DNA from: Alistipes sp.
Lineage (GTDB): Bacteria; Bacteroidota; Bacteroidia; Bacteroidales; Rikenellaceae
DNA length: 64,000 nt
Assembly (NCBI GenBank): GCA_017465575.1
Contig: JAFTVX010000018.1
Span: 57,747-121,746 of the forward strand
Direction: 5' to 3'
Part shown: one piece after another, positions 30,481 to 42,528 of the stretch
How the letters are laid out: the number at the start of each line of letters is the position of its first letter
Position numbering within the stretch: the first letter of the stretch is position 1
Translations under genes and position numbers: made by a program
Notes under the pieces: generated by a model
The model's input: the letters and a program-made list of their open reading frames with translations, nothing else
Databases searched by the model: none
What the model was told of the DNA's origin: nothing

Positions 30481-32646
30481 TCACAACATCGGCCAGATTG
30501 TGGGCGGTTGGATAGATACCCACTCAGCTCCATTGCCCTGCGAGGTGCAGGTGATGCGCACCGACTTTATGGGGCGCTCGGGGTATTCGATAAAGAACAT
30601 ACCACACTCCAACTCCCCTACTCGCTCATAGGTTCTGCCATCGTACGATAGTTCGATATAGCCATTCTCGAAGATAAAGCGAGGCAACTGGAAGTTACCC
30701 GTGGCGACCTTCATACGGCGACACTTGACTGGCGTATCGAAGGTAAACATCACCCAGTCGCCAACATCCGCAGCACGCGCGGTACGAGCCAAACGACCAT
30801 AACTTTGTGCCTTCTCAAACGAGAAGTTCTCCCTATCGCCCATCGACGAAGTGATAGTAAACGGAGGAGTTATCGTCCTGAAGTGCTCAGACACTCCCGC
30901 CTCGGGCGACATAGCCTCACCACGACGCGCGACAAACGAATACTCCGCAGGCTTATCCGTTGCGATAGGCTCGGTATAGAGCATCTCGGTAGTCATCGGC
31001 TCACGACGATAGTAGATATCGCTACCATCATCCGTAGTTGCCGAAAGCAAGCCATTAGCAAACTCCACCTTAGGAGGCATTAGGCGGTAGGCAACGCCCA
31101 TTCTATCCAATCTCGCGTAGTGGTCAACCATCTTACGATAGAACGCCTCGACATTGCGCTCATCGCTATTCACCCAACAAATCTCGGCAAGAGCCACAAG
31201 GCGCGGTAAGGTCATATAGTGCAGATAACGAGCATTTTCGGGGTTGCGCGATGCGTATGCCTCCGAGAAGAACGATGCCTCGAAGCCGAGGACATTTTTG
31301 CTCTCCTCCTCGGTAAAGCCAACTCCCGGAAGCGTAAAGTTATAGACCTTAGAATAGTCGAAAACCGCCGCCCAGTCGTGACCTGGTTCGCGGGGCGTCT
31401 GCTTCATATCGAAGTAGAAGTATTGACCCGGCATCACCACGGTAGAATAGCCCTCACGCGCCGATGCACGGCACTCCTTGATGCCCTCCCAGCCATATAC
31501 GCGGGTATCGTCAGCGAGCTTTCCGCCCTCGATAGCCTCATTCCAAACAGCTGGGTGCTTGCCATATTTAGCCAAAATATCGGTTAGGCGCGACATAAAG
31601 TAGCGCTGTAACTCGCTCTCGTCGGTCATTCCGTTTTTACGCATAAAAGCCTGACAATCGGGACAACGGCGCCACTGCGACATATCGACCTCATCGCCAC
31701 CAATATGAATATAGGGCGTGGGGAATAGCTCGCAGACCTCTTTGAGGATATCCTCCAAAAGTGTGTAGTTCGCCTCCTTTGTAGGGCAGAATGCCGAGCG
31801 AGTGTCGTAGCCAAAGGCTCGCGACTTGTTTGGCTCGTAGTTGCACAAAATCTCGGGGTGCATAGTCGCCATACATAGGCTATGACCAGGCAAATCAATC
31901 TCGGGGATAACCTCGATATTGCGCACCGCAGCGTAGGCGATAATCTCGCGCATATCATCTTGGGTATAGTAACCACCCCATCGCTCGTTCCACTTGCCAT
32001 AGCGAGGCCATATGGGAGAGTCGCCACCACGGAAGCCACCTACCTCAGCGAGTTCGGGGTGTGACTTTATCTCCAAACGCCACGCCTCGTCGTCGGTAAG
32101 GTGTAGGCGCAGGTTGTTAATCTTGTGCAGAGCCAAGAGGTCGATAAACTCCATTATCGCCTCCTTCGTTATCCAAGTACGGCAAGGGTCGAGCATAAAG
32201 CCTCGATGCGAGTAGCGAGGAGCATCGTCTATCGTGCAACAATCAACGACTGTGGGCAACTGCAAAGAGCGAGAATAGACCTCATCGGGCAGAAGTTGCA
32301 GAAGCGTTGCCACACCATTAAATACTCCGCCATAGTCGCCACCGCTAACTATGATATTATATTCGCTAATTGTAACAGAGTACTCTTCAGTACCATCCTC
32401 CAAACCATAGCACAGCAAAATATCTATTGCATCTGCCTCTGCCTCAATACCAAGATAGTCGGCAAGGTAGTGAGCGATAGGCTCCAACTTATCGTTAGAC
32501 CAACCTATTCGGCAATCCTTATTAAGGGTAAACACGCCACCAAGAGGCTTATACTCTCGCGGTGTAGGGATAATCGTAGGCTCTTGTGCCACAGCGCCAC
32601 AAATGGCAAATAGCAGAGTTATTAGTGTTAAAAATCGCATTCGCAT
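30481..32646 (-). CDS. GH20 beta-N-acetylhexosaminidase
   Basis: Exported glycoside hydrolase of 721 residues that removes terminal N-acetylglucosamine or N-acetylgalactosamine from glycans. A signal peptide (to about residue 21) is followed by the small GH20b domain (about 24-140). The catalytic barrel has the Asp318-Glu319 pair in HIGGDEVD, 'GFMLDPCRTW' and 'WNEAIEGG'. The C-terminal 190 residues form a chitobiase-C-like piece and a discoidin-like (F5/8-type) carbohydrate-binding domain. The second Met (residue 3) could equally be the start. It is separated from the nuclease locus upstream by a terminator, so it is probably an independent unit; mucin or host glycans are likely substrates. 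Confidence 0.9.
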   Translation of the reverse strand: MRMRFLTLITLLFAICGAVAQEPTIIPTPREYKPLGGVFTLNKDCRIGWSNDKLEPIAHYLADYLGIEAEADAIDILLCYGLEDGTEEYSVTISEYNIIVSGGDYGGVFNGVATLLQLLPDEVYSRSLQLPTVVDCCTIDDAPRYSHRGFMLDPCRTWITKEAIMEFIDLLALHKINNLRLHLTDDEAWRLEIKSHPELAEVGGFRGGDSPIWPRYGKWNERWGGYYTQDDMREIIAYAAVRNIEVIPEIDLPGHSLCMATMHPEILCNYEPNKSRAFGYDTRSAFCPTKEANYTLLEDILKEVCELFPTPYIHIGGDEVDMSQWRRCPDCQAFMRKNGMTDESELQRYFMSRLTDILAKYGKHPAVWNEAIEGGKLADDTRVYGWEGIKECRASAREGYSTVVMPGQYFYFDMKQTPREPGHDWAAVFDYSKVYNFTLPGVGFTEEESKNVLGFEASFFSEAYASRNPENARYLHYMTLPRLVALAEICWVNSDERNVEAFYRKMVDHYARLDRMGVAYRLMPPKVEFANGLLSATTDDGSDIYYRREPMTTEMLYTEPIATDKPAEYSFVARRGEAMSPEAGVSEHFRTITPPFTITSSMGDRENFSFEKAQSYGRLARTARAADVGDWVMFTFDTPVKCRRMKVATGNFQLPRFIFENGYIELSYDGRTYERVGELECGMFFIEYPERPIKSVRITCTSQGNGAEWVSIQPPTIWPML

Positions 32647-32687: not shown

Positions 32688-32725
32688 AAAAAAGCGACTA
32701 ATCGGAAACAAGTCCAATTAGTCGC
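32688..32725 (-). terminator. Terminator ending the nuclease/TonB operon
   Basis: On the minus strand GCGACTAATT pairs with ATTAGTCGC (32694-32702 with 32716-32725) and is followed by a run of U residues (A run at 32688-32693 on the plus strand). It lies just after the DUF5689 gene. Confidence 0.8.
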
Positions 32726-32745: not shown

Positions 32746-33981
32746 TTACATTGTATCAATCTCGCCCTCCTCGTCAATCCAAGGCACGGTCTTCATATCC
32801 TCGGTAGTCATTGCCTCGACCTGCTCGTCGGTAAGCAATGCTGCCTCGCCATTTGCGAACTCGATATCCGAGAAGCTGCTGATGGTAAGCTGATACGAAG
32901 CGTAGTCATCGGCGTTGCCCACATAGTCCGAACGCTGAGCGTAGATGCCATAGATAGCCGTGATGGTAGCCTTCTCGCCATCCTTGCAGACATTACGACG
33001 AGCAAAGCGCGAGTAGCCACTTGTGCGGAGTGCATAGACGCCATTTGCCGAGCAAACCGTAGCCGAAGGGTTGTAGGTAAACAACACCGAGCCATAAAGG
33101 CTACGACCTGTAATCTCCTCCTTGAAAGCCCACTGATACCAGCCCTTCGATACCGTAGGTCGAGGGTCGGTATAGAGCCAACTGGGATAGATATTCTCAA
33201 ACGAGCCACTCTTCATTGCAGGGTTGGTTACGCCATCCTGATTGGGAACACCGGCATAGCGACACTCCAAATCCTCGAAGCGAATCAAGCGACCAAACAT
33301 CTGCTCACGGCTCTTGTTGTTGGGGAATACGGTCTTGTAGTTATCGGGCGTAACGGTGATAATATCCACCGACCTGGGGTCTGCCTTCCACTCATCGTAC
33401 GAACCAACCACCAACTCCGAAGGCTCGCCAGCAAAGACATACTGGTCGATAACCTCCTGAAGTTCGATATTTGAGTTGGCATAGTACTTATGCTCACCCG
33501 CCTTGTTCCAAGACTCCGAGGGAGCGCCACCCAACGAGAGCATCATACGATAGTTGCCAAGATACAAGCCCGAAAGACGGACATATACCCACGAGCCATA
33601 CTTATAGCGAAGGCCTACATTATTGTTGAGTTTAAGCTCGATACCTGCAGTGTGGTCCTGGATATGCAACGACTTATAGACATTACCCTCCTCGTCGTTC
33701 GAAATAACCTTACCCTTGATATAGACATCACGACCAACAAAGATATCCTCGCCAACAAGCTTGTAAATAGTATTGTTCCAACCGCTATTTACGCCCGTAT
33801 TGCTGATTGTGCCAAAGGCATCTTTAAGCTCCTTGATTGTGATATACTCTGCATCGGGGAACTGCGCCTCAAACGACGAATCGCTAAATATGGGGCGAGG
33901 CTCAACCGACTCAAACTTTTCGTAACAGCCAACTGCCAAGAGTGCGATGGCAAGTAGTGCAAAAATCTTATTAATTTTCAT
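32746..33981 (-). CDS. DUF5689-family lipoprotein
   Basis: Predicted surface or periplasmic lipoprotein of 411 residues with lipobox cysteine at residue 19 (AVGC). After 'YITIKELKDAF', the part at about 75-155 ('DVYIKGKVISNDEEGNVYKSLHIQDHTAGIELKL') has the layout of the DUF5689 domain, an OB-like fold related to nucleic-acid-binding YhcR modules. The C-terminal half has no recognised domain but is rich in aromatics ('YQWAFKEEI'). As last gene of the operon behind the TonB-dependent receptor it occupies the position a SusD-like partner would take, so it may present ligand to the receptor. That role is inferred. Confidence 0.75.
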   Translation of the reverse strand: MKINKIFALLAIALLAVGCYEKFESVEPRPIFSDSSFEAQFPDAEYITIKELKDAFGTISNTGVNSGWNNTIYKLVGEDIFVGRDVYIKGKVISNDEEGNVYKSLHIQDHTAGIELKLNNNVGLRYKYGSWVYVRLSGLYLGNYRMMLSLGGAPSESWNKAGEHKYYANSNIELQEVIDQYVFAGEPSELVVGSYDEWKADPRSVDIITVTPDNYKTVFPNNKSREQMFGRLIRFEDLECRYAGVPNQDGVTNPAMKSGSFENIYPSWLYTDPRPTVSKGWYQWAFKEEITGRSLYGSVLFTYNPSATVCSANGVYALRTSGYSRFARRNVCKDGEKATITAIYGIYAQRSDYVGNADDYASYQLTISSFSDIEFANGEAALLTDEQVEAMTTEDMKTVPWIDEEGEIDTM

Positions 33982-34000
33982 ATTTCAAACCTTTTAGCTG

Positions 34001-36928
34001 TTAGAATCTAAAGTAAATGTTAAGATAGTAGTTGATACCATTCATATAGAAGTACTTCGAGTCGAAGCGCGAATATGTGGTAGGCTTCTTGGTGATTACC
34101 ATCTCGCCATCAGCATTGGGGAAGATGATAGGATCAGAAAGCTTATTCAGACGCATCTGCTCGTAACCACCAGTACGGATACGCTGGTTATTAAGGATAT
34201 TGTTTACCTGAAGGCTGAAGCCGAGGGTATACTTATACTTAATACGGAAGTTCTTGCCGATGCTTGCGCTAAGAGTGTAGGCATTACCCAAGTCCTCCTG
34301 GGCACGAATCTCGTCGATAATGCCCACTACATAGGCCTTCTGACGACCAGTCTCAAGGTTATTCCAGTCGTAGATACGCTTAATCTCGTTAGCGAGATAG
34401 TCGGTACGGTACATAGGGTTCATCGAGAGGTACAGGCGGTCGTAGTAGTTGAAGTCCACCGATGCAAACCAGTTGTTAGGGCCACGGAAATTAAGACCCA
34501 CATTGATAGCGGTTTGAGGTGTGCTCTCAACCTTCATACCCTTCCAGTTAACACGGCTGTGAACGACATCTGTAGCCGAGTTGTCGATCATCTGCGTAAA
34601 TTCGGGGTTCGAGGTGTAGATATAGTCGCCAAGGCTCACTGCACCCTGCAACGACAAGCCCCAAGCAATAGGCACGCTCAAACCGAGCTCAACACCCATA
34701 TAGCGCTTATCGATACCCGACATTGCGAAGTTGGTAAACGAGCTCTGAGTATCGTCATAGAACGAGATAACCTTCGACTGGTCGAGCATCTGGGTATAGT
34801 ATGCCGAAAGACGAGCACGCACCCAAGGCAAGCGGAGGTTATAGGTAAGGTCTACGCCATAAATCTTCTCTGCATCCAAGCCTGGGGTAATCTGATTACG
34901 GGTACGAGCCGAAACAAAGGCATTGTTGAACATCGTGGGGTTCTGCATAGCCGTAGCGTTGAGCTCCAAAGAGTGAGCACCCGAGAACTGATAGCGAAGA
35001 TTTACCTTGCCCTTATATGTAAGGTTGTTAATCTTCTCCGAATTGCCCAACGAGGTCATGCCGATATTGCCATTGGCATTGCTATTCTGGAACAAGCCCT
35101 TCTCCCAAAGGCCCTCACGCCAGATAGACGAGAAGCCTACCTCGGCGCCAATATTTGCCGAGAAGCCACCTGCTGACACCTCGTACATAGCCCAGAGCTG
35201 ACCCTGGCGCACATGTGCGTAGTAGTCGTAGCCATACTTGTCGCCCTCCTTCACGGCCTGTGCCTGACCATGCTCGCGATAGTATGCCATATTGTTCTGA
35301 TACGACTCGGCATTGCTACCAAAGTCGCGCTCTGCAAACTTATCTACATCCAACCAGTAGTCGCCACCGAGCAAATCCTTAACCGTCGAGTAGTACTCGG
35401 TGCGGTTGATGCGGGCACGAACACCAGCAGTAAGTTTCGAGCCACCACGGAAGATATGGTTGAGCTGTGCAGCGAAGTTGTAGTCAATCTGGTCGGTGTG
35501 GCGCTCCTCAATCATAGCCACAGCACGATGTCCCTCGCCATAGCGATTATCTACATCGCCCATCTTGTTATCCTGAATGATGCCGTCGAAGTCGATATAG
35601 CCGTTCCAGTTGCGGGTGTACTCGATAAACTTAGCACGGTCGGTCTCGATGTCGGTCTCAGTAAACTGCAAAGGATAACCATTTGCCTCGGCAAAGTTGT
35701 TGAGCATCAAGCGACGACCCAAGCGGTCGCCATAGTACGAAGGCAACACGCGGTAGTAGTCGGGGCGTGGATCCTCACCCTTATACCAGGTAAGTGCCGA
35801 GTAGCCATTAAAGCCAAAGCGCACCGAGGTAGCCACCGATAGAGCCGTATTCTCCGATATCTGCCAGTTGTAGTTAAGCATCGCAATAGGCTCGTGCGAA
35901 CGACGAACACGGGCATTACGCTCCTTGCCTGCCTGCAAGCCGACATTGGGGTTGTAGTAGTTATTGCCCCAAAGGTCGTATGCCTCCTGTGTTGATGCCT
36001 GCTGTGCGCCACGCTGTGTGGGAGCACCCATAACCATCAACGATAGGCGATGCTTGTCGTTGAAGACCTTCTCTGCAGAAGCAAAGTAGCCGTAGGCATT
36101 GTAGTAAACGCCATTGACATAGCCGTGGTCACCCTGTCGTGTTGAGAACGAGAAGCCATACGACCAGCCGTTATCCAGCTGACCCGAAGCATAGCTTACC
36201 ATAACACGATAGCGGTAGAGCTGCATAGAGTTTACGACCGACGAACGGAAGCCCTTGCGAAGCTGCGAAGCACGGGCATTGATATTCGTAGTACCTGCCA
36301 CGCCACCCAAGCCGTAGTCCGAAGTCTGCAAGCCCGATGTGTTCTCCTGGTTGCGTGTAGCATCATTAAGACCACTCCACAACGACCAAGGACCATAGCC
36401 CGTAAGAGCATCGTTGAAGCGGATACCGTTAAGATAGACATCCTGATACTGCGAGTCGTAGCCACGAACATTGAAGCGCATCTCCGAGAAGCGGTACGAA
36501 GCAATGTTGTTGAACAAATCCTTAGATGCCGAGAGCGCCGAGGGCATAGACTGCGTATCACCCGCCGACTCCACATCGGTATCGAGCTCAGCAAATGCCG
36601 AGTCATCGACAGCAACAACTGCCGCAGGCACCATAACCACCTGCTGCATATCGTGAACAAGCTCCTTGACACGCACCATAACGCTCAACTCCTCAAATTC
36701 GGGAGCCTCGAAGCGAAGGAGGTACTGACCAGGCTCAAGACCCTCAATCAAGAACTCACCATCGCTGTTGGTCGTCGTGTTGATTGCCACGCCATCAACC
36801 GAGATTGCTACCCCACTGATTGGCTGACGGTCTTCACGCGACACGATAGTACCCTTCATACCACCCTGCTGCGCAAAGGCTGCAAAGCTAAGAAGCGTAC
36901 AAAACATTGTCAGTAAAAATCTCTTCAT
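34001..36928 (-). CDS. TonB-dependent outer-membrane receptor
   Basis: Large receptor of 975 residues. A signal peptide (to AFAQ at residue 20) is followed by a carboxypeptidase-regulatory-like domain (about 22-100, 'GTIVSREDRQPISGVAISVDG'). The plug comes next ('FSEMRFNVRGYDSQYQDVYLNGIRFND'), then a long beta-barrel of Tyr/Asn-rich strands ending in IYFRF. It resembles SusC-type architecture in having the N-terminal extension but no susD gene is adjacent. Placed in the same operon as two nucleases and OB-fold lipoproteins, it probably imports nucleic-acid fragments, nucleotides or nucleosides, energised by TonB-ExbBD. The substrate is inferred from neighbours only. Confidence 0.9.
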   Translation of the reverse strand: MKRFLLTMFCTLLSFAAFAQQGGMKGTIVSREDRQPISGVAISVDGVAINTTTNSDGEFLIEGLEPGQYLLRFEAPEFEELSVMVRVKELVHDMQQVVMVPAAVVAVDDSAFAELDTDVESAGDTQSMPSALSASKDLFNNIASYRFSEMRFNVRGYDSQYQDVYLNGIRFNDALTGYGPWSLWSGLNDATRNQENTSGLQTSDYGLGGVAGTTNINARASQLRKGFRSSVVNSMQLYRYRVMVSYASGQLDNGWSYGFSFSTRQGDHGYVNGVYYNAYGYFASAEKVFNDKHRLSLMVMGAPTQRGAQQASTQEAYDLWGNNYYNPNVGLQAGKERNARVRRSHEPIAMLNYNWQISENTALSVATSVRFGFNGYSALTWYKGEDPRPDYYRVLPSYYGDRLGRRLMLNNFAEANGYPLQFTETDIETDRAKFIEYTRNWNGYIDFDGIIQDNKMGDVDNRYGEGHRAVAMIEERHTDQIDYNFAAQLNHIFRGGSKLTAGVRARINRTEYYSTVKDLLGGDYWLDVDKFAERDFGSNAESYQNNMAYYREHGQAQAVKEGDKYGYDYYAHVRQGQLWAMYEVSAGGFSANIGAEVGFSSIWREGLWEKGLFQNSNANGNIGMTSLGNSEKINNLTYKGKVNLRYQFSGAHSLELNATAMQNPTMFNNAFVSARTRNQITPGLDAEKIYGVDLTYNLRLPWVRARLSAYYTQMLDQSKVISFYDDTQSSFTNFAMSGIDKRYMGVELGLSVPIAWGLSLQGAVSLGDYIYTSNPEFTQMIDNSATDVVHSRVNWKGMKVESTPQTAINVGLNFRGPNNWFASVDFNYYDRLYLSMNPMYRTDYLANEIKRIYDWNNLETGRQKAYVVGIIDEIRAQEDLGNAYTLSASIGKNFRIKYKYTLGFSLQVNNILNNQRIRTGGYEQMRLNKLSDPIIFPNADGEMVITKKPTTYSRFDSKYFYMNGINYYLNIYFRF

Positions 36929-36942
36929 ATATTATAAGTGTA

Positions 36943-37974
36943 TTATTTGCCGATATAGATATATACGGGGAAGTGGTCGCTAAAGCCATTCTGAAAGTCA
37001 TTCGTAACGAAGGTACGCAAGGGATAACCCTTGTATTGACCCTCCTGCTGAAGCATATACGAACGAGTGAAGATATTGCCATAGAACTTCTTGCCCTTAA
37101 TGAGGCGCAACTCACCCTCCTTGGCATTCACCAAATTCTCCGTAACGCAGATATTGTCGAACAGATTCCACGCATCCTGATATGCCAAAGTGCCGAGACC
37201 TGCACGCAACATAGCATTGTAGGGATTAAAGAAGTCGCCCTCTGTCAACTCCTTAACCTTGCCCTTAGCGCCCATAGTCTTTACAAGGCTTGCATCGGTA
37301 GCATCATCGTTGAAGTCGCCCATAACGATAACCTTGGTTGCGGGGTTATTGGCAAGAAGCGAATCCTTAATCTCGCGAATCTGCTTGGCACAAGCATCAC
37401 GCTTGAACTGCGATGCCTCCTTGCCACCAAGGCGTGAGGGCCAGTGTGAAACAAGGAAGTAGAAGGGCTCGCCATCGATTGTACCCCACATCGTAACGAG
37501 GTCACGGGTGCGGAAATCGGGCAACTCCTCAACAACAAGCTTGATATTCTCCGAGCCCTCGAGTTTGAAGACATCGGCACGATACAAGAACGCTACATCG
37601 ACACCACGGGCATCAGGTGAGTCGTAGTGGCAGATGCGGTAGTTAGCGCCCTTCAACTTGGGCTGTGAGATAAGGTCCTCAAGCACCGAACGATTCTCAA
37701 TCTCCGAAACACCGATAACGATGGGATAATCCTTCTGAATAGCGGCGATATCGAACAACACGCGCTCCATATTCGAGAGCTTCTTCTGATATTTAATCTC
37801 GTTCCACTGCTTTGCACCTTGGGGCGTAAACTCCTCGTCGTGGGTCTCGGGATCGTCGTAAATATCAAACAGGTTCTCGAGGTTGTAGAAGACCACGGTG
37901 TAGGGCTTCTCTTGTGCAATGGCCGATGCCACAACAAAGAGGGCTACACATAGCATTAAAAATTGTCGTTTCAT
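36943..37974 (-). CDS. Secreted endonuclease/exonuclease/phosphatase-family enzyme
   Basis: Exported metal-dependent phosphoesterase of 343 residues with a signal peptide to SAIAQ (residue 21). The EEP (DNase I-like) motifs are intact: YNLENLFD (Asn31, Glu33), GVSEIENR, GVDVAFLYR, SHWPS, GDFND and the terminal SDHFPV. These supply the metal-binding Glu and the catalytic Asp/His pair. The family includes DNases, phosphatases and exonucleases. In this operon a DNase or nucleotide-phosphate-removing role is likely. It starts 31 bases after the NUC1 gene and ends 14 bases before the receptor gene. Confidence 0.88.
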   Translation of the reverse strand: MKRQFLMLCVALFVVASAIAQEKPYTVVFYNLENLFDIYDDPETHDEEFTPQGAKQWNEIKYQKKLSNMERVLFDIAAIQKDYPIVIGVSEIENRSVLEDLISQPKLKGANYRICHYDSPDARGVDVAFLYRADVFKLEGSENIKLVVEELPDFRTRDLVTMWGTIDGEPFYFLVSHWPSRLGGKEASQFKRDACAKQIREIKDSLLANNPATKVIVMGDFNDDATDASLVKTMGAKGKVKELTEGDFFNPYNAMLRAGLGTLAYQDAWNLFDNICVTENLVNAKEGELRLIKGKKFYGNIFTRSYMLQQEGQYKGYPLRTFVTNDFQNGFSDHFPVYIYIGK

Positions 37975-38005
37975 ATAAAGTTTATTACAAGTTATTCATT
38001 TTAGG

Positions 38006-39208
38006 TTAGTTTACACCCCACTCCGAAGGCACAATCGTACTCTTAACCTTCTCCTCGATGCTATCGTCGAGCATAGGGAAGAAAGTAAATCCCGTCTTCT
38101 CTTCCAACTCCGAAATAGAGATGCAGTCCGCCTCGGTTATCGAGGTGTTGTCGCCCGTATTGGCGTGCTTGAGCCAAAAGACGATGCCACGCACTGCATT
38201 AGCATCTTTAACCTCGTCGATACGCAAGCCAGTATTACCCTTCTTGGTACGCAACAGAGCCTTATAGTAGTAAGTCGGCGTAGGACATACATTGCCCGAG
38301 CGGTCGGTGGTTTGGCTCTCGATTGATGAGTCGTGCTCGCCCTCGAAGTAGGCACCAGTAACGACATAGAGCGTATCGCTACAAACCATATTACGCACTC
38401 TGCCCTCCAAAACGCCCCACTTATTCTGGTTGAAGTTACCCTGCTGAGGGGTCATATTCGTAGCGTAGAAGGTCTGGTCCATCATCTCCTGCGAACACTT
38501 GCGGTCGGCAGCAGGAATCTGGTGACCACGGTCATACCAGCCGTTGTACGACTTATAGAGGTTAGCTTGGTCGGATGTGCTAACCATAGGGTCGTAGCCA
38601 AACGAGCTATAATCGCGGTCGCCCTCGCCCGACATGTGCGACGAGTGCAACGGATAGGCAACCCACAACGATGCACGCACCGAGGGGTCGAAGCAGTAGC
38701 TATAGTTGCGGGCATTATCCTTGATGCCGAGCTTGCCGTAATGGGTATTAAAGATATAGTCGTTCTCATTTTTGCAAACGGGCAACTCCGCCCACTCACG
38801 CTCCATAGCCACGCTTGTGTCGTAGCTAAGTTGTGTAAAGTAGCCAGTATATTGGTTGCCGTCAGAGAACTCAACACTTACCTCTGCTGAACGCTCCTTG
38901 CCCGACGAGTTCTTATCGAAGTAGATATAGATAACCTTATCGACGGTTGTCATGGTGTCGGTCAAAGTGGTTACTCCGCCGGTGAAGGTGGCCCAATCGC
39001 CCTCCGACTTGATGGCTACCGAATAAGCAGTACCCTGTTGTGCACGCAGCACCACAGCGCAGTTAGTCGATGTGCCCTTAACTGTCGTAGTCGTAAGTTT
39101 GGCTTCTGAGACTATCTTCTCTACCTTCACATCATCACAACCAATCGTCATAAGCGCGCATAAAGCAACGCTAAACATCACAAATATCTTCTTCACCTTA
39201 TTCAACAT
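38006..39208 (-). CDS. NUC1 DNA/RNA non-specific endonuclease lipoprotein with BACON-like domain
   Basis: Lipoprotein of 400 residues (lipobox cysteine 24, TIGC). Residues about 30-128 form a BACON-like beta-sandwich ('KSEGDWATFTG', 'ERSAEVSVEFSDG', ending in Phe-Thr-Gln). The remainder is a DNA/RNA non-specific endonuclease of the Serratia type with the catalytic DRGH at 226-229 and the metal-ligand Asn in 'NMTPQQGNFNQNKW'. Such enzymes cut single- and double-stranded DNA and RNA with a single Mg2+. Membrane anchoring suggests action at the cell surface. The hairpin at 39259-39285 precedes it in the operon mRNA. Confidence 0.92.
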   Translation of the reverse strand: MLNKVKKIFVMFSVALCALMTIGCDDVKVEKIVSEAKLTTTTVKGTSTNCAVVLRAQQGTAYSVAIKSEGDWATFTGGVTTLTDTMTTVDKVIYIYFDKNSSGKERSAEVSVEFSDGNQYTGYFTQLSYDTSVAMEREWAELPVCKNENDYIFNTHYGKLGIKDNARNYSYCFDPSVRASLWVAYPLHSSHMSGEGDRDYSSFGYDPMVSTSDQANLYKSYNGWYDRGHQIPAADRKCSQEMMDQTFYATNMTPQQGNFNQNKWGVLEGRVRNMVCSDTLYVVTGAYFEGEHDSSIESQTTDRSGNVCPTPTYYYKALLRTKKGNTGLRIDEVKDANAVRGIVFWLKHANTGDNTSITEADCISISELEEKTGFTFFPMLDDSIEEKVKSTIVPSEWGVN

Positions 39209-39258
39209 ATCTTGGTTTGGTTTTCTCTCTTCTTAATGGTTTGATTATCCCCTCGCCC

Positions 39259-39285
39259 ACTTGGGTGGGACTACCCCACCCAAGT
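39259..39285 (-). other. Stable intercistronic hairpin before the nuclease gene
   Basis: Perfect 11-bp inverted repeat ACTTGGGTGGG/CCCACCCAAGT around the loop ACTAC. It is not followed by a U run on the minus strand, so it is not a standard terminator. It lies in the 98-base gap between the OB-fold lipoprotein and the nuclease and may shield the upstream mRNA end or reduce downstream expression. Confidence 0.65.
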
Positions 39286-39306
39286 ATTCGGCAACGAGAA
39301 AAAGTT

Positions 39307-42300
39307 TTACTCGTAGTAAACAGTAAGGCTATTCATACGAACCTGTGCGCTGAGTTCAGCCACAGAGTATGATGTAGCAGCTGCAGGAAGAGTAACAGTT
39401 ACGATGCTTCCATCAACAGTTACTGTACCTGAGGTAATAGAGTTCTGCAAGTTAGTAGCATATGTACCGTTGTTACACGCAAACTCAATCTTGGTCATAG
39501 TCTTCTCACCCTCTACCTTAAGGCTTGAGCTCTTGTAAAAACGAGCAGGTGCTGAGTAGTCAGCCACATTGCTTGTTGAACTAGCCTTGTCGTTGGTGAG
39601 CTTAACGCCATTCTGCTCCCAAACCTGCTGCTCGGTAGTAAACGATGTGCGGTTAGCGACATCAGCAAAAGACAAGGTTGCTGAGTTAGCGGGAGCCTCG
39701 GGAGTCTCACCTACTACATGCGAAACATAAACACCACTACCTACCTGAGGCTCGTCGTTGTATGAAGTGCGAACACCACGCATAGTGAGCGTATCACCCT
39801 CCTTAAGACCAAGTGAGGTAAATACCTTGTTACCATCAGCATCGTAGATACCATAAACATATACGGTACCTGTCTCATCCTGAAGGTCAAAGTTGCCGTA
39901 GTTGGTATTTGCTACATTCTTGATAACACCAGTAAGCTCATATACGGTGTCGCCCTCTGCTGCAGCCAAGAACTCGGCAACGGTTACCTTCTGAACCTCA
40001 CCGGGAGTAGGCTCGGGCTCGGTAGTACCGCCATCAGCAGCGGTAACCTCCGAAATCATAGTATTTACATACTTGCCACCAGAGAAGCCAATAGTCCAAC
40101 CCTTAACCAAGATCTTCTGACCATCCAACGATGCATCAACAGTACCCTCGATAACATATGCCAACGAGCCAACAGCGGTAGCAGCGCCATCAACGGTAAC
40201 ATTGTAGTAGTAGCCGCTGATTGCCAAAGTACCAGTGTACTCAACATACTGGATAACGGGGTTAGAGAGGTAAGCATCCATAGCAGCGCCGTCCATTACG
40301 GTAGCCGTAGGATATGTGTACGATGTCGAGCCAGTAACGGTTACGGTAGGAGTAGCTACCTGACGCAAACCACCATAAGTAGCCATAGCACCCTCTACCT
40401 TTACAACATCGCCAACCTTGGCGTCAACAGCAGAGCCAACATATACGAGCAACTTGCCAGTAGCATCCTCTACCAATACACCACGCGAGTAAACACCGAT
40501 AACGGTAGCGTTCTCGATAACGATAGCAGTATTATCAGCAGCAGCGATAGCCTCAGCAACGGTTACAGTACCCTCGGGAGTAACTGGATTCTCGGGCTCA
40601 TCGTTGCCACCCTCGTCGTTAATAGGCTCATCGGTAAGCTTAACACCGCAAACGATAGCACGAGCGTAAGAGATAGTAGCATCAGCCGAAGTAAGCTCGA
40701 AGTTAGCATCTGTAGAGAACTCGATAGTCGAAGTCTCCTTCAAACCAGAAAGCTTAACAGAGTAGTGGTCTGAATCAGCAAAAGTCAAAGCGGTAAAAGG
40801 AGGATTGCCAGTTGCGCCATCGTTAGGAGCAATCTCCAAAGTCTGGGTAGCACCACCATCAACACGGAAGTAGAGTTTTGCATCGCCACCCTTCCAAGCA
40901 ACAGCATAGAGGTTGAGATACTTATCGCCAGATACGCCTACAGCAGCCGATGTGAACAAACCAGTCTGCTTGCCCTTACCAAGCTTGAAACCAGTTGCGG
41001 CAGAACCATCGATAGTGGTTGTGCCAAGGCTGTAAACAGCATTTGTTGAGTCATCGGTTGAGCATACGAATGCAACATCCGAAGCATAGGGACCCTCTGC
41101 AGGCTCGGGAGTAGGCTCCTCGCCACCCTCACCAGGAACCAACGATACGAAGATAGCATCCTTACCCTGAGGAGTGCCGTTGTATGATGTACGAACGGTC
41201 TGAACGGTGATAGTGTCGCCTACCTTTGCGCCAGACTCTGCCCAGTACTTCTGCTCGCCAGTGGGAGAGCTAAGACCGTAGATAAGAACCTCACCAGTAC
41301 CATCGTTAAGGTAGAAGTTACCGTATGTGGTATTGGTTACATTGGTAATCTCACCAGTAAGCTCGTAAACGGTAGAGTCCTCAGCAGCCTCCAAAAACTC
41401 AGCAACGGTTACCTTCTTAACCTCTACGGGCTCGGGAGCCTCTACATTGTCGAGGTCGATAGCCTGACCACCGTTACCTGTGTAGAGCTTAACATCGTCG
41501 AGACGATATACGCTTGCTACATCAGCAGCAAACTTGAGGTAGAGAGTCTCGGGAACAGCGTTCAAAGTGAACTCTGCGGTAGCCACATTCCAACGACCGC
41601 CCTCGGTACCTGCGAAGGTGTACTCCTTAATCTCAACCCAGCCGTTGCCGTCCTTCGAAGCGTAGATATGGAACTCCTCGTTCTTAAATGTGCTATCGCC
41701 ATCCTGAGTATACTTCTCCGAACCGAAGGTAAGCTTAAGGTTAGTCTGTCCCTCAGCCAAGGTGATGTTGTTCACCTGGAAGTAAGCCGATGAGCCGAAG
41801 AAGATGTTGTTAGAGCCCGAACCAGCATAGTCAGAGTACTGGCTATCAGATGTAGAGTTAGCACGAACCGAAACACCCTTACCCGAGTAGGTTACATTAT
41901 CCGAAGCAGGACCCTCAGCATTAGCGAACTGGGGAAACTGGTCGATGTAGGGCCAAGATGAGCCAGAGCCATAGGTATTGGTTGCCTCCTCACCATCGAA
42001 GTTATCGCCATAGAGCAACTCCTCCTCTACGGTAGGAGTCTCGCTTGCAGACTGCGATACGGTAATCTTCTTGGTATCCCAGTTGCCATACTCCTTGTGG
42101 AGAGCAATAACCTTAACGATAGCGGTACGCACAGCGCCCGACTCGTTCATAGCAACTGCAACGGTAAGTGTAGCATCACCCTTACCAGCAGCGGGGGTAA
42201 CAGTAAGCCAGTCGGCATCGTCAACCTCGACCTTCCAGTCGGCATTGGCGGTAAGCTCGACACTCTGGCTACCCTCCTCCATCGTAAAGTTCAATGATGT

Positions 42301-42426
42301 AGCAGAAACCTCCACCTTGGGGTCTGCAACAACATCATCGCCCTTATCCTCGCAAGCTACAAAGCCAAGAGCAGAGCCCAAGACCATAGCTACGGCGAAG
42401 AAAGACTTGAAAAGTTTGTTTGCCAT
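39307..42426 (-). CDS. Large surface lipoprotein with BACON domain and YhcR-type OB folds
   Basis: Lipoprotein of 1039 residues (lipobox cysteine 25, FVAC). Visible parts in order: BACON domain (about 37-127); a discoidin/anchor-like beta-sandwich (138-318); an OB-like domain (338-430); a second beta-sandwich (450-598); further OB-like domains (620-700 and 726-792); another (812-905); and a C-terminal beta domain (915-1039). The first and last OB domains are close copies of each other (VAEFL, VYELTG, NYGNF/TYGNF, then RTSYN). OB folds of this type occur in the B. subtilis nuclease YhcR and bind nucleic acid. No catalytic motif is seen, so binding of DNA or RNA at the surface is the likely task. 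It is the first gene of the operon. Confidence 0.8.
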   Translation of the reverse strand: MANKLFKSFFAVAMVLGSALGFVACEDKGDDVVADPKVEVSATSLNFTMEEGSQSVELTANADWKVEVDDADWLTVTPAAGKGDATLTVAVAMNESGAVRTAIVKVIALHKEYGNWDTKKITVSQSASETPTVEEELLYGDNFDGEEATNTYGSGSSWPYIDQFPQFANAEGPASDNVTYSGKGVSVRANSTSDSQYSDYAGSGSNNIFFGSSAYFQVNNITLAEGQTNLKLTFGSEKYTQDGDSTFKNEEFHIYASKDGNGWVEIKEYTFAGTEGGRWNVATAEFTLNAVPETLYLKFAADVASVYRLDDVKLYTGNGGQAIDLDNVEAPEPVEVKKVTVAEFLEAAEDSTVYELTGEITNVTNTTYGNFYLNDGTGEVLIYGLSSPTGEQKYWAESGAKVGDTITVQTVRTSYNGTPQGKDAIFVSLVPGEGGEEPTPEPAEGPYASDVAFVCSTDDSTNAVYSLGTTTIDGSAATGFKLGKGKQTGLFTSAAVGVSGDKYLNLYAVAWKGGDAKLYFRVDGGATQTLEIAPNDGATGNPPFTALTFADSDHYSVKLSGLKETSTIEFSTDANFELTSADATISYARAIVCGVKLTDEPINDEGGNDEPENPVTPEGTVTVAEAIAAADNTAIVIENATVIGVYSRGVLVEDATGKLLVYVGSAVDAKVGDVVKVEGAMATYGGLRQVATPTVTVTGSTSYTYPTATVMDGAAMDAYLSNPVIQYVEYTGTLAISGYYYNVTVDGAATAVGSLAYVIEGTVDASLDGQKILVKGWTIGFSGGKYVNTMISEVTAADGGTTEPEPTPGEVQKVTVAEFLAAAEGDTVYELTGVIKNVANTNYGNFDLQDETGTVYVYGIYDADGNKVFTSLGLKEGDTLTMRGVRTSYNDEPQVGSGVYVSHVVGETPEAPANSATLSFADVANRTSFTTEQQVWEQNGVKLTNDKASSTSNVADYSAPARFYKSSSLKVEGEKTMTKIEFACNNGTYATNLQNSITSGTVTVDGSIVTVTLPAAATSYSVAELSAQVRMNSLTVYYE

Positions 42427-42520: not shown

Positions 42521-42528
42521 CAAATATA
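42521..42528 (-). promoter_or_regulatory. -7 box of the nucleic-acid locus
   Basis: Minus-strand TATATTTG, 94 bases before the ATG of the first gene at 42426. The region upstream is extremely AT-rich and no firm -33 element can be singled out. Confidence 0.5.

Follow-up and report, generated by a model that had tools for sequence, protein, structure and literature searches.

A candidate TonB-energised importer of nucleic acid encoded by a five-gene operon of Alistipes sp.

What might a TonB-dependent receptor import when its gene shares an operon with two nuclease-type enzymes? The question is raised by a stretch of 64,000 nucleotides from Alistipes sp. (GenBank assembly GCA_017465575.1, contig JAFTVX010000018.1, positions 57,747 to 121,746; hereafter the window, in whose numbering coordinates are given), part of a draft genome of 1.95 Mb in 47 contigs. 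On its minus strand, from 42426 to 32746, lie five close-set open reading frames (ORFs) encoding, 5' to 3', a BACON/OB surface lipoprotein of 1039 amino acids that is a candidate binder of nucleic acid (39307..42426), a NUC1-type lipoprotein (DNA/RNA non-specific endonuclease) of 400 amino acids (38006..39208), an EEP enzyme of the Exo_endo_phos_3 type of 343 amino acids (36943..37974), a TonB-dependent receptor of 975 amino acids (34001..36928) and a DUF5689 lipoprotein of 411 amino acids (32746..33981); calculated from the ORF coordinates, the gaps in order of transcription are 98, 31, 14 and 19 bp. We consider it probable, on the sequence comparisons set out below, that the operon encodes a TonB-energised outer-membrane importer of DNA, possibly of RNA. 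We favour import because the receptor and the EEP enzyme are homologous to products of the natural transformation locus of Riemerella anatipestifer, because the EEP gene is linked to the receptor gene throughout the class, and because a second nuclease family occurs near the same core.

In R. anatipestifer, a transposon screen identified two outer-membrane genes, RA0C_RS04915 and RA0C_RS04920, as essential for natural transformation, and markerless deletion of either gave zero detectable transformants (PMC8459023; here and below, statements on the literature refer to excerpts of the papers cited). The product of the first gene is an outer-membrane protein carrying a CarboxypepD domain, that of the second a DUF5689 protein; the authors' speculative model of DNA entry puts both at the outer membrane, and they are termed a possible new machinery (PMC8459023). 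On distribution the same paper is inconsistent, describing homologues as widespread in Bacteroidetes and also the RS04915 homologue as found in Flavobacteriaceae only. Mutants of either TonBA or TonBB show lower transformation (PMC8383284). For comparison the locus was retrieved by means of a 23-base comEC primer taken from that second paper, and was obtained on one contig of strain CCUG25054, the strain of the published work being ATCC 11845. Its gene order (recA, dinB, sdhB, sdhA, sdhC, comEC, two further genes, EEP, receptor, DUF5689) fits the RA0C numbering in steps of five (RecA RS04870, ComEC RS04895, EEP RS04910, receptor RS04915, DUF5689 RS04920), and it is from this count, together with the domains, that the CCUG25054 genes are identified with RS04915 and RS04920. 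What we take, from its first residues, to be a Cas9-like gene (L012:17211-19501; L and G numbers denote the loci and genomes compared) begins ~1.4 kb away from the DUF5689 gene.

The window receptor aligns with the R. anatipestifer receptor from end to end (340 bits, 28% identity, 1008 columns). Searched against the R. anatipestifer genome, it finds the counterpart of RS04915 first (289 bits, the next match scoring 92), and in the reverse comparison the R. anatipestifer receptor matches the window receptor at 336 bits, as against 142 and 133 bits for two further receptors encoded in the window's genome. A tree of 107 receptors, rooted on one of the paralogues included, groups both in a clade of 101 receptors (support 0.94) from which the included paralogues are excluded; two loci from another order of the class (L041 and L042) encode receptors near that of R. 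anatipestifer, scoring 1455 and 1384 bits where its self-match scores 2156. The EEP enzymes of the window and R. anatipestifer are likewise related (236 bits, 36% identity), and the DUF5689 proteins more weakly so (49 bits over 159 amino acids). Judged by alignment and phylogeny, the window receptor is an orthologue of RS04915, its DUF5689 neighbour is the counterpart of RS04920, and the operon belongs with the R. anatipestifer core, sharing with it the orthologous receptor, a neighbouring DUF5689 lipoprotein and a neighbouring EEP gene, although the EEP gene is divergent there and co-directional in the window.

The distribution of the receptor was surveyed with a profile of the window and R. 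anatipestifer proteins (E <= 1e-60). Matches were present in 22 of 148 genomes of a phylum sample, all 22 being among the 37 genomes of the same class, the window's own included (the 106 unlisted non-matching genomes are assigned, by list order, to other classes); in 93 of 198 genomes of an order sample, one of them through a paralogue only; and in 118 of 150 genomes of a family sample, 71 of them (own genome included, counted by eye) at >= 500 bits and the rest through a shorter paralogue. Loci were then compared for 20 of the 21 non-own phylum hits, 40 of the 92 non-own order hits (one of these, L100, with the paralogue only) and 40 of the 70 family genomes, own excluded, that reach 500 bits; they were chosen for score and contig room, so that the adjacency rates may be flattered. 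A DUF5689 gene starts <=100 bp downstream of the receptor gene in 16/20 loci from other orders, 39/39 from other families of the order and 40/40 from the family, an adjacency that exceeds chance across these three rings. Counting only typed genes and ignoring untyped ones in between, DUF5689 comes next after the receptor in 19 of the 20 other-order loci (in L043 and L044 a single gene intervenes), and EEP comes next upstream in 14/20, 30/39 and 39/40 loci, respectively, lying within 500 bp in 14/20, 29/39 and 39/40. The EEP gene is divergent in all 14 of these other-order loci and in 26 of the 30 other-family loci, and co-directional in the family. Thus the EEP-receptor-DUF5689 core recurs through the class.

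The full five-gene order is confined to fewer loci: 37 of 40 in the family, four of 39 elsewhere in the order and none of 20 in other orders. In the receptor tree these loci, together with two in which NUC1 and BACON/OB lie downstream, form one clade of 46 (support 1.0), and L140, the sole family locus outside that clade, does not have the five-gene order. The simplest reading of the tree is that NUC1 and BACON/OB joined the core by one gain. Ten representatives of the 22 commonest clusters of neighbouring genes were annotated and proved to be mostly of housekeeping types, one being a DUF6359 lipoprotein (Pfam) and another Endonuclease I (PF04231, 159.8 bits for the one member scanned with Pfam, the others being assigned by BLAST clustering). 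Endonuclease I genes lie near the core on the receptor's strand in five of 59 loci outside the family (L050, L086, L089, L090 and L091), the order in L089 and L091 (L091:3744-10501) being receptor, DUF5689, lipoprotein, Endonuclease I. The occurrence of a second nuclease family near the core supports a nucleic-acid substrate.

Receptor paralogues with DUF5689 neighbours were also seen. The window's genome encodes a second, shorter receptor of 806 amino acids in which no CarboxypepD domain was seen (L015:6222-8642, G000:C27) and, apart from it, two small DUF5689 lipoproteins whose genes lie in tandem (L013:7224-8727, G000:C7). In genome G261 (L100) two DUF5689 genes lie close to a related receptor gene, so that the family probably has a second receptor-DUF5689 system. 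In L088 two receptor systems stand back to back: on the far side of the EEP gene lie another receptor gene and a DUF5689 gene of its own.

A preliminary description of the locus, prepared without database searches, had listed five same-strand genes with a single terminator, the domains named above, intact NUC1 and EEP motifs, and lipoboxes on the BACON/OB, NUC1 and DUF5689 proteins. These particulars all stand: the genes lie on the minus strand at the positions given, Pfam returns BACON, PF01223, PF19580 and DUF5689 (the OB and plug matches being sub-threshold), the motifs and the three lipoboxes are present, with none claimed or found on the EEP enzyme, and one hairpin followed by a T run stands 3' of the DUF5689 gene. 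This candidate terminator (32694-32725, minus strand; ~13 pairs including one G-U pair) was read by eye and was not listed by an automated promoter and terminator scan, whose sites were at shuffle level (14 vs 14.9 and 11 vs 10.8). Upstream of the BACON/OB gene, TATATTTG (42521..42528, minus strand) is a weak candidate for a Bacteroidetes-type -7 element, by comparison with what we take to be the consensus, and no convincing -33 element accompanies it there. An Rfam scan covering 14 kb gave zero matches. Past the hairpin, on the same strand, lies a GH20 hexosaminidase gene (30481-32646), which is probably a unit separate from the operon because the hairpin and T run precede it; GH20 occurs within 5 kb downstream in three of 41 family loci (the window, L101 and L103).

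The NUC1 protein matches Endonuclease_NS (PF01223) at 134.5 bits, above the family cut-off, has an intact DRGH motif, and aligns by sequence to nuclease chains in the PDB, among them those of EndoG and EXOG. Across the loci RGH is present in 44/44 NUC1 proteins and DRGH in 28/44, the window's included; in the other 16 (around L107-L138 of the set) the first residue is A, N, S, V, Q or T, and human EXOG has S at this position. Three family relatives (L134, L135 and L136) carry two NUC1 genes in tandem within the operon. The EEP enzyme matches PF19580 over its whole length (378.9 bits) with its motifs intact (NLENLFD, SEIENR, RGVDVA, SHWPSR, GDFNDD and SDHFP), and these are almost invariant across the loci, SDH being present in 87/87; a PDB sequence search with this protein gave zero matches. 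By simple pattern rules applied to stop-to-stop frames, a lipobox is found in 40/43 BACON/OB, 33/44 NUC1, 90/101 DUF5689 and 10/87 EEP proteins, and a type I-like signal in 75/87 EEP proteins. The window's EEP enzyme has a type I-like signal as well and is probably periplasmic; the idea of a surface-located system would apply to the three lipoproteins and probably not to this enzyme. Pfam matches of the receptor are CarbopepD_reg_2 at the N terminus (47.6 bits) and a sub-threshold TonB plug (20.9 bits, cut-off 23.9), and among 29 receptor relatives the plug model was matched by 10 and the TonB barrel model by one; in the PDB only its N-terminal domain was matched by sequence, including one domain of a SusC homologue.

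How nucleic acid might be bound depends on the two remaining lipoproteins. The BACON/OB protein (lipobox FVAC-EDKGDD) has a Pfam BACON match of 41 bits and sub-threshold OB matches (tRNA_anti-codon, E 1.3e-4), and a PDB sequence search with it gave BACON matches only, besides matches at E >= 0.2. By hmmsearch it has three OB-like repeats, the first at 41128..41421 (E 4e-30) and the second at 40324..40575 (E 1.4e-19), each E value being for a model seeded on the repeat itself, and the third at 39706..39996, all on the minus strand; the third is 58% identical to the first and overlaps the tRNA_anti-codon match (residues 831-894). The DUF5689 protein matches PF18942 at 98.3 bits, its best stretch (33484..33843, minus strand) being defined by Pfam residues 47-166 together with a profile match to the OB repeats. 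Compared by HHalign, the DUF5689 profile matches the OB repeats of all BACON/OB proteins at 97% (E 5e-11), a figure that is partly circular, 18 of those 43 proteins carrying DUF5689 domains by our own model; with 37 repeats from 19 BACON/OB proteins without DUF5689 matches it is 88% (E 3.4e-6). DUF5689 was matched in five of 11 BACON/OB proteins scanned. Among the partner lipoproteins DUF5689 was found in 29/29, a Pfam OB nucleic-acid-binding family in 7/29 and a lamin tail domain in 1/29. A PDB sequence search with the DUF5689 protein alone gave zero matches, and one with the DUF5689 profile gave weak C-terminal gingipain matches (best E 8e-4). There is thus moderate support, from profile comparison, for DUF5689 being related to OB folds. 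In the ExeM, NucH and YhcR extracellular DNases, OB-type folds and an EEP domain are fused in one protein. The operon resembles them in having such parts that may act together and differs in encoding the OB and EEP parts as separate genes; its EEP enzyme matches NF033681 (ExeM/NucH) weakly, at 31.8 bits, where the family cut-off is 300.

Our working hypothesis is that the OB-type lipoproteins (BACON/OB and DUF5689) would capture nucleic acid at the cell surface, that the NUC1 lipoprotein would cut it there, and that the receptor with its dedicated partner DUF5689 would haul the resulting piece across the outer membrane by means of TonB. The EEP enzyme would then process the imported piece in the periplasm, and the product might either enter transformation by way of the HHH protein and ComEC or be broken down as a nutrient. 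For the Alistipes organism, what is transported and in which direction, what NUC1, EEP and BACON/OB each do, and what becomes of the DNA are matters that we infer. The preliminary description had likewise read the operon as a system for capture, cleavage and TonB-driven import of nucleic acid, and this part of it is strengthened by the R. anatipestifer homology, the EEP linkage and the second nuclease. Its further analogy with a nutritional polysaccharide utilisation locus does not fare as well, there being no SusD or SusC hit and, among the 10 neighbour clusters annotated, no gene for nucleoside use, and the precedent being transformation. It had also asked whether the gene families co-occur in relatives, as they do, as a five-gene set in the family and as a three-gene core through the class. 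Its remark that it knew of no characterised system with exactly this composition can be qualified, as the receptor-DUF5689 pair has been known genetically since 2021; the five-gene form is new. Among the papers listed by searches of the open PMC literature, preprints lying outside the scope, none was seen that connects the core with Bacteroidales or sets out the five-gene arrangement.

Several observations weigh against import into the cell, or against its extension to this operon. For binding, cleavage and uptake alike, the evidence on the window proteins is that of sequence. A nuclease at the surface would shorten transforming DNA. No PF01223 match is present in the R. anatipestifer genome searched, and there is no BACON/OB protein among the ORFs of the retrieved stretch or named in the excerpts of the R. 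anatipestifer transformation papers, so that two of the five operon parts are without precedent there. The DUF5689 match to RS04920 is confined to the N-terminal part, and the window's three OB repeats, taken by themselves, give a weak match to the DUF5689 profile (HHalign 37% at E 3.6e-4, as against <=0.6% for five control shuffles of the columns). The effect of TonBB in R. anatipestifer has been attributed to iron (PMC8383284). Within the genus the receptor is patchy (49 of 62 genomes at >= 500 bits, counted by eye). ComEC is near-universal in the order sample (187/198), being found in 86 of the 93 genomes with a receptor hit and in 101 of the 105 without, and its distribution is therefore no evidence linking the receptor with transformation. 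ComEC is missing from seven genomes that carry the receptor, including both sampled of one family (drafts may miss it), and two genomes of another receptor-bearing family have no HHH_3 match.

The strongest alternative is that in this branch an ancestral DNA-uptake core has turned scavenger, cutting extracellular DNA or RNA at the surface and importing oligonucleotides for phosphate, nitrogen or nucleosides with no part in transformation. Such a role would suit the confinement of NUC1 and BACON/OB to a single receptor clade (46 leaves, support 1.0), the absence of NUC1 from R. anatipestifer and the seven receptor-bearing genomes lacking ComEC, and marine Bacteroidota have been reported as degraders of extracellular DNA (PMC8289736). 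However, no nucleotidase, nucleoside hydrolase or nucleoside transporter was found among the 10 annotated of the 22 commonest neighbour clusters, and excerpts of the literature on the R. anatipestifer genes do not report a nutritional use. In addition, the window's genome encodes ComEC, DprA and a membrane-anchored multi-HHH (ComEA-like) protein, the last related (81 bits, 24%) to that of R. anatipestifer, which is taken to be RS02645. PF12836 (HHH_3) was tried as a marker of ComEA and rejected: it matched 192/198 genomes of the order, its best listed matches being proteins of ~710 amino acids that are presumably Tex-like. We regard purely nutritional uptake as a serious contender whose chances fall somewhat short of even.

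The converse proposal, that the operon serves gene exchange only, would have NUC1 act like pneumococcal EndA, the DNA-entry nuclease of Gram-positive competence, in making uptake ends or single strands. The likeness to EndA/NucA-type entry nucleases lies in a surface nuclease beside DNA uptake, whereas the operon's NUC1 is a lipoprotein of a Gram-negative surface with EndoG and EXOG as its nearest solved relatives. Orthology to essential transformation genes speaks for this proposal, as does the domain content of ComEC, which both here and in R. anatipestifer comprises DUF4131 and Competence domains with no Pfam lactamase-type domain, so that a separate nuclease may be needed. Directly upstream of the window genome's comEC (L016:135-2331) stands a stand-alone lactamase-fold gene. 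Yet R. anatipestifer transforms although PF01223 is unmatched in the genome searched, and the ComEC profile shows no association with the receptor; an exclusive role in transformation seems to us unlikely.

A third possibility is that the receptor imports another ligand (a glycan, a peptide or a metal complex) and that the nucleases are bystanders or clear extracellular DNA. BACON domains are commonly associated with the binding of glycans or mucin, a GH20 gene lies downstream in the window and two near relatives, and DUF5689 genes adjoin receptor paralogues as well (L088 and L100). The operon resembles the SusCD systems of polysaccharide utilisation loci in combining a TonB-dependent receptor with a surface lipoprotein partner and a surface hydrolase. 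It differs from them in that its hydrolases are nucleases, the glycosidase lying outside the transcription unit, past the terminator, and in only three of the 41 family loci. No SusD family was found among the Pfam hits of the five operon proteins, and an NCBIfam scan of the receptor, with a library that presumably includes the SusC/RagA model, left that model unmatched and gave one unrelated N-terminal hit; a polysaccharide utilisation locus was dropped as a candidate on these two results. Since, moreover, the receptor-EEP linkage is class-wide and the receptor's orthologue is essential for transformation (PMC8459023), a different ligand is improbable. Surface defence or biofilm remodelling, in which the two exported nuclease-type enzymes of the operon would destroy incoming phage DNA or matrix DNA, is very improbable, for a conserved dedicated receptor would not be expected for pure destruction and PADLOC models were matched by none of the five operon proteins, a result on which an anti-phage defence system was dropped.

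Returning to the importer, we tentatively extend it to a class-wide, pilus-independent DNA importer of Bacteroidota, made up of a TonB receptor with a lid formed by an OB-type lipoprotein, and of an EEP enzyme in the periplasm, and serving gene exchange as well as feeding, to which individual branches may have recruited NUC1 and a multi-OB capture protein (gut relatives) or Endonuclease I; our confidence in this broader proposal is a little below even. In Porphyromonas gingivalis the import of DNA into the periplasm has been called unclear, type II and type IV secretion systems have not been identified and the conjugation pilus is not involved (PMC11532111). If the hypothesis is true, the importer could supply the outer-membrane step of DNA uptake in that species, and DUF5689 would gain a probable role. 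A receptor present in 93 of 198 genomes of the order and linked to DUF5689 and a nuclease-type enzyme would then give this step named genes, an energy source and candidate nuclease steps. One machine would yield both nutrients and transforming DNA, with consequences for gene exchange in the gut and for the use of extracellular DNA there.

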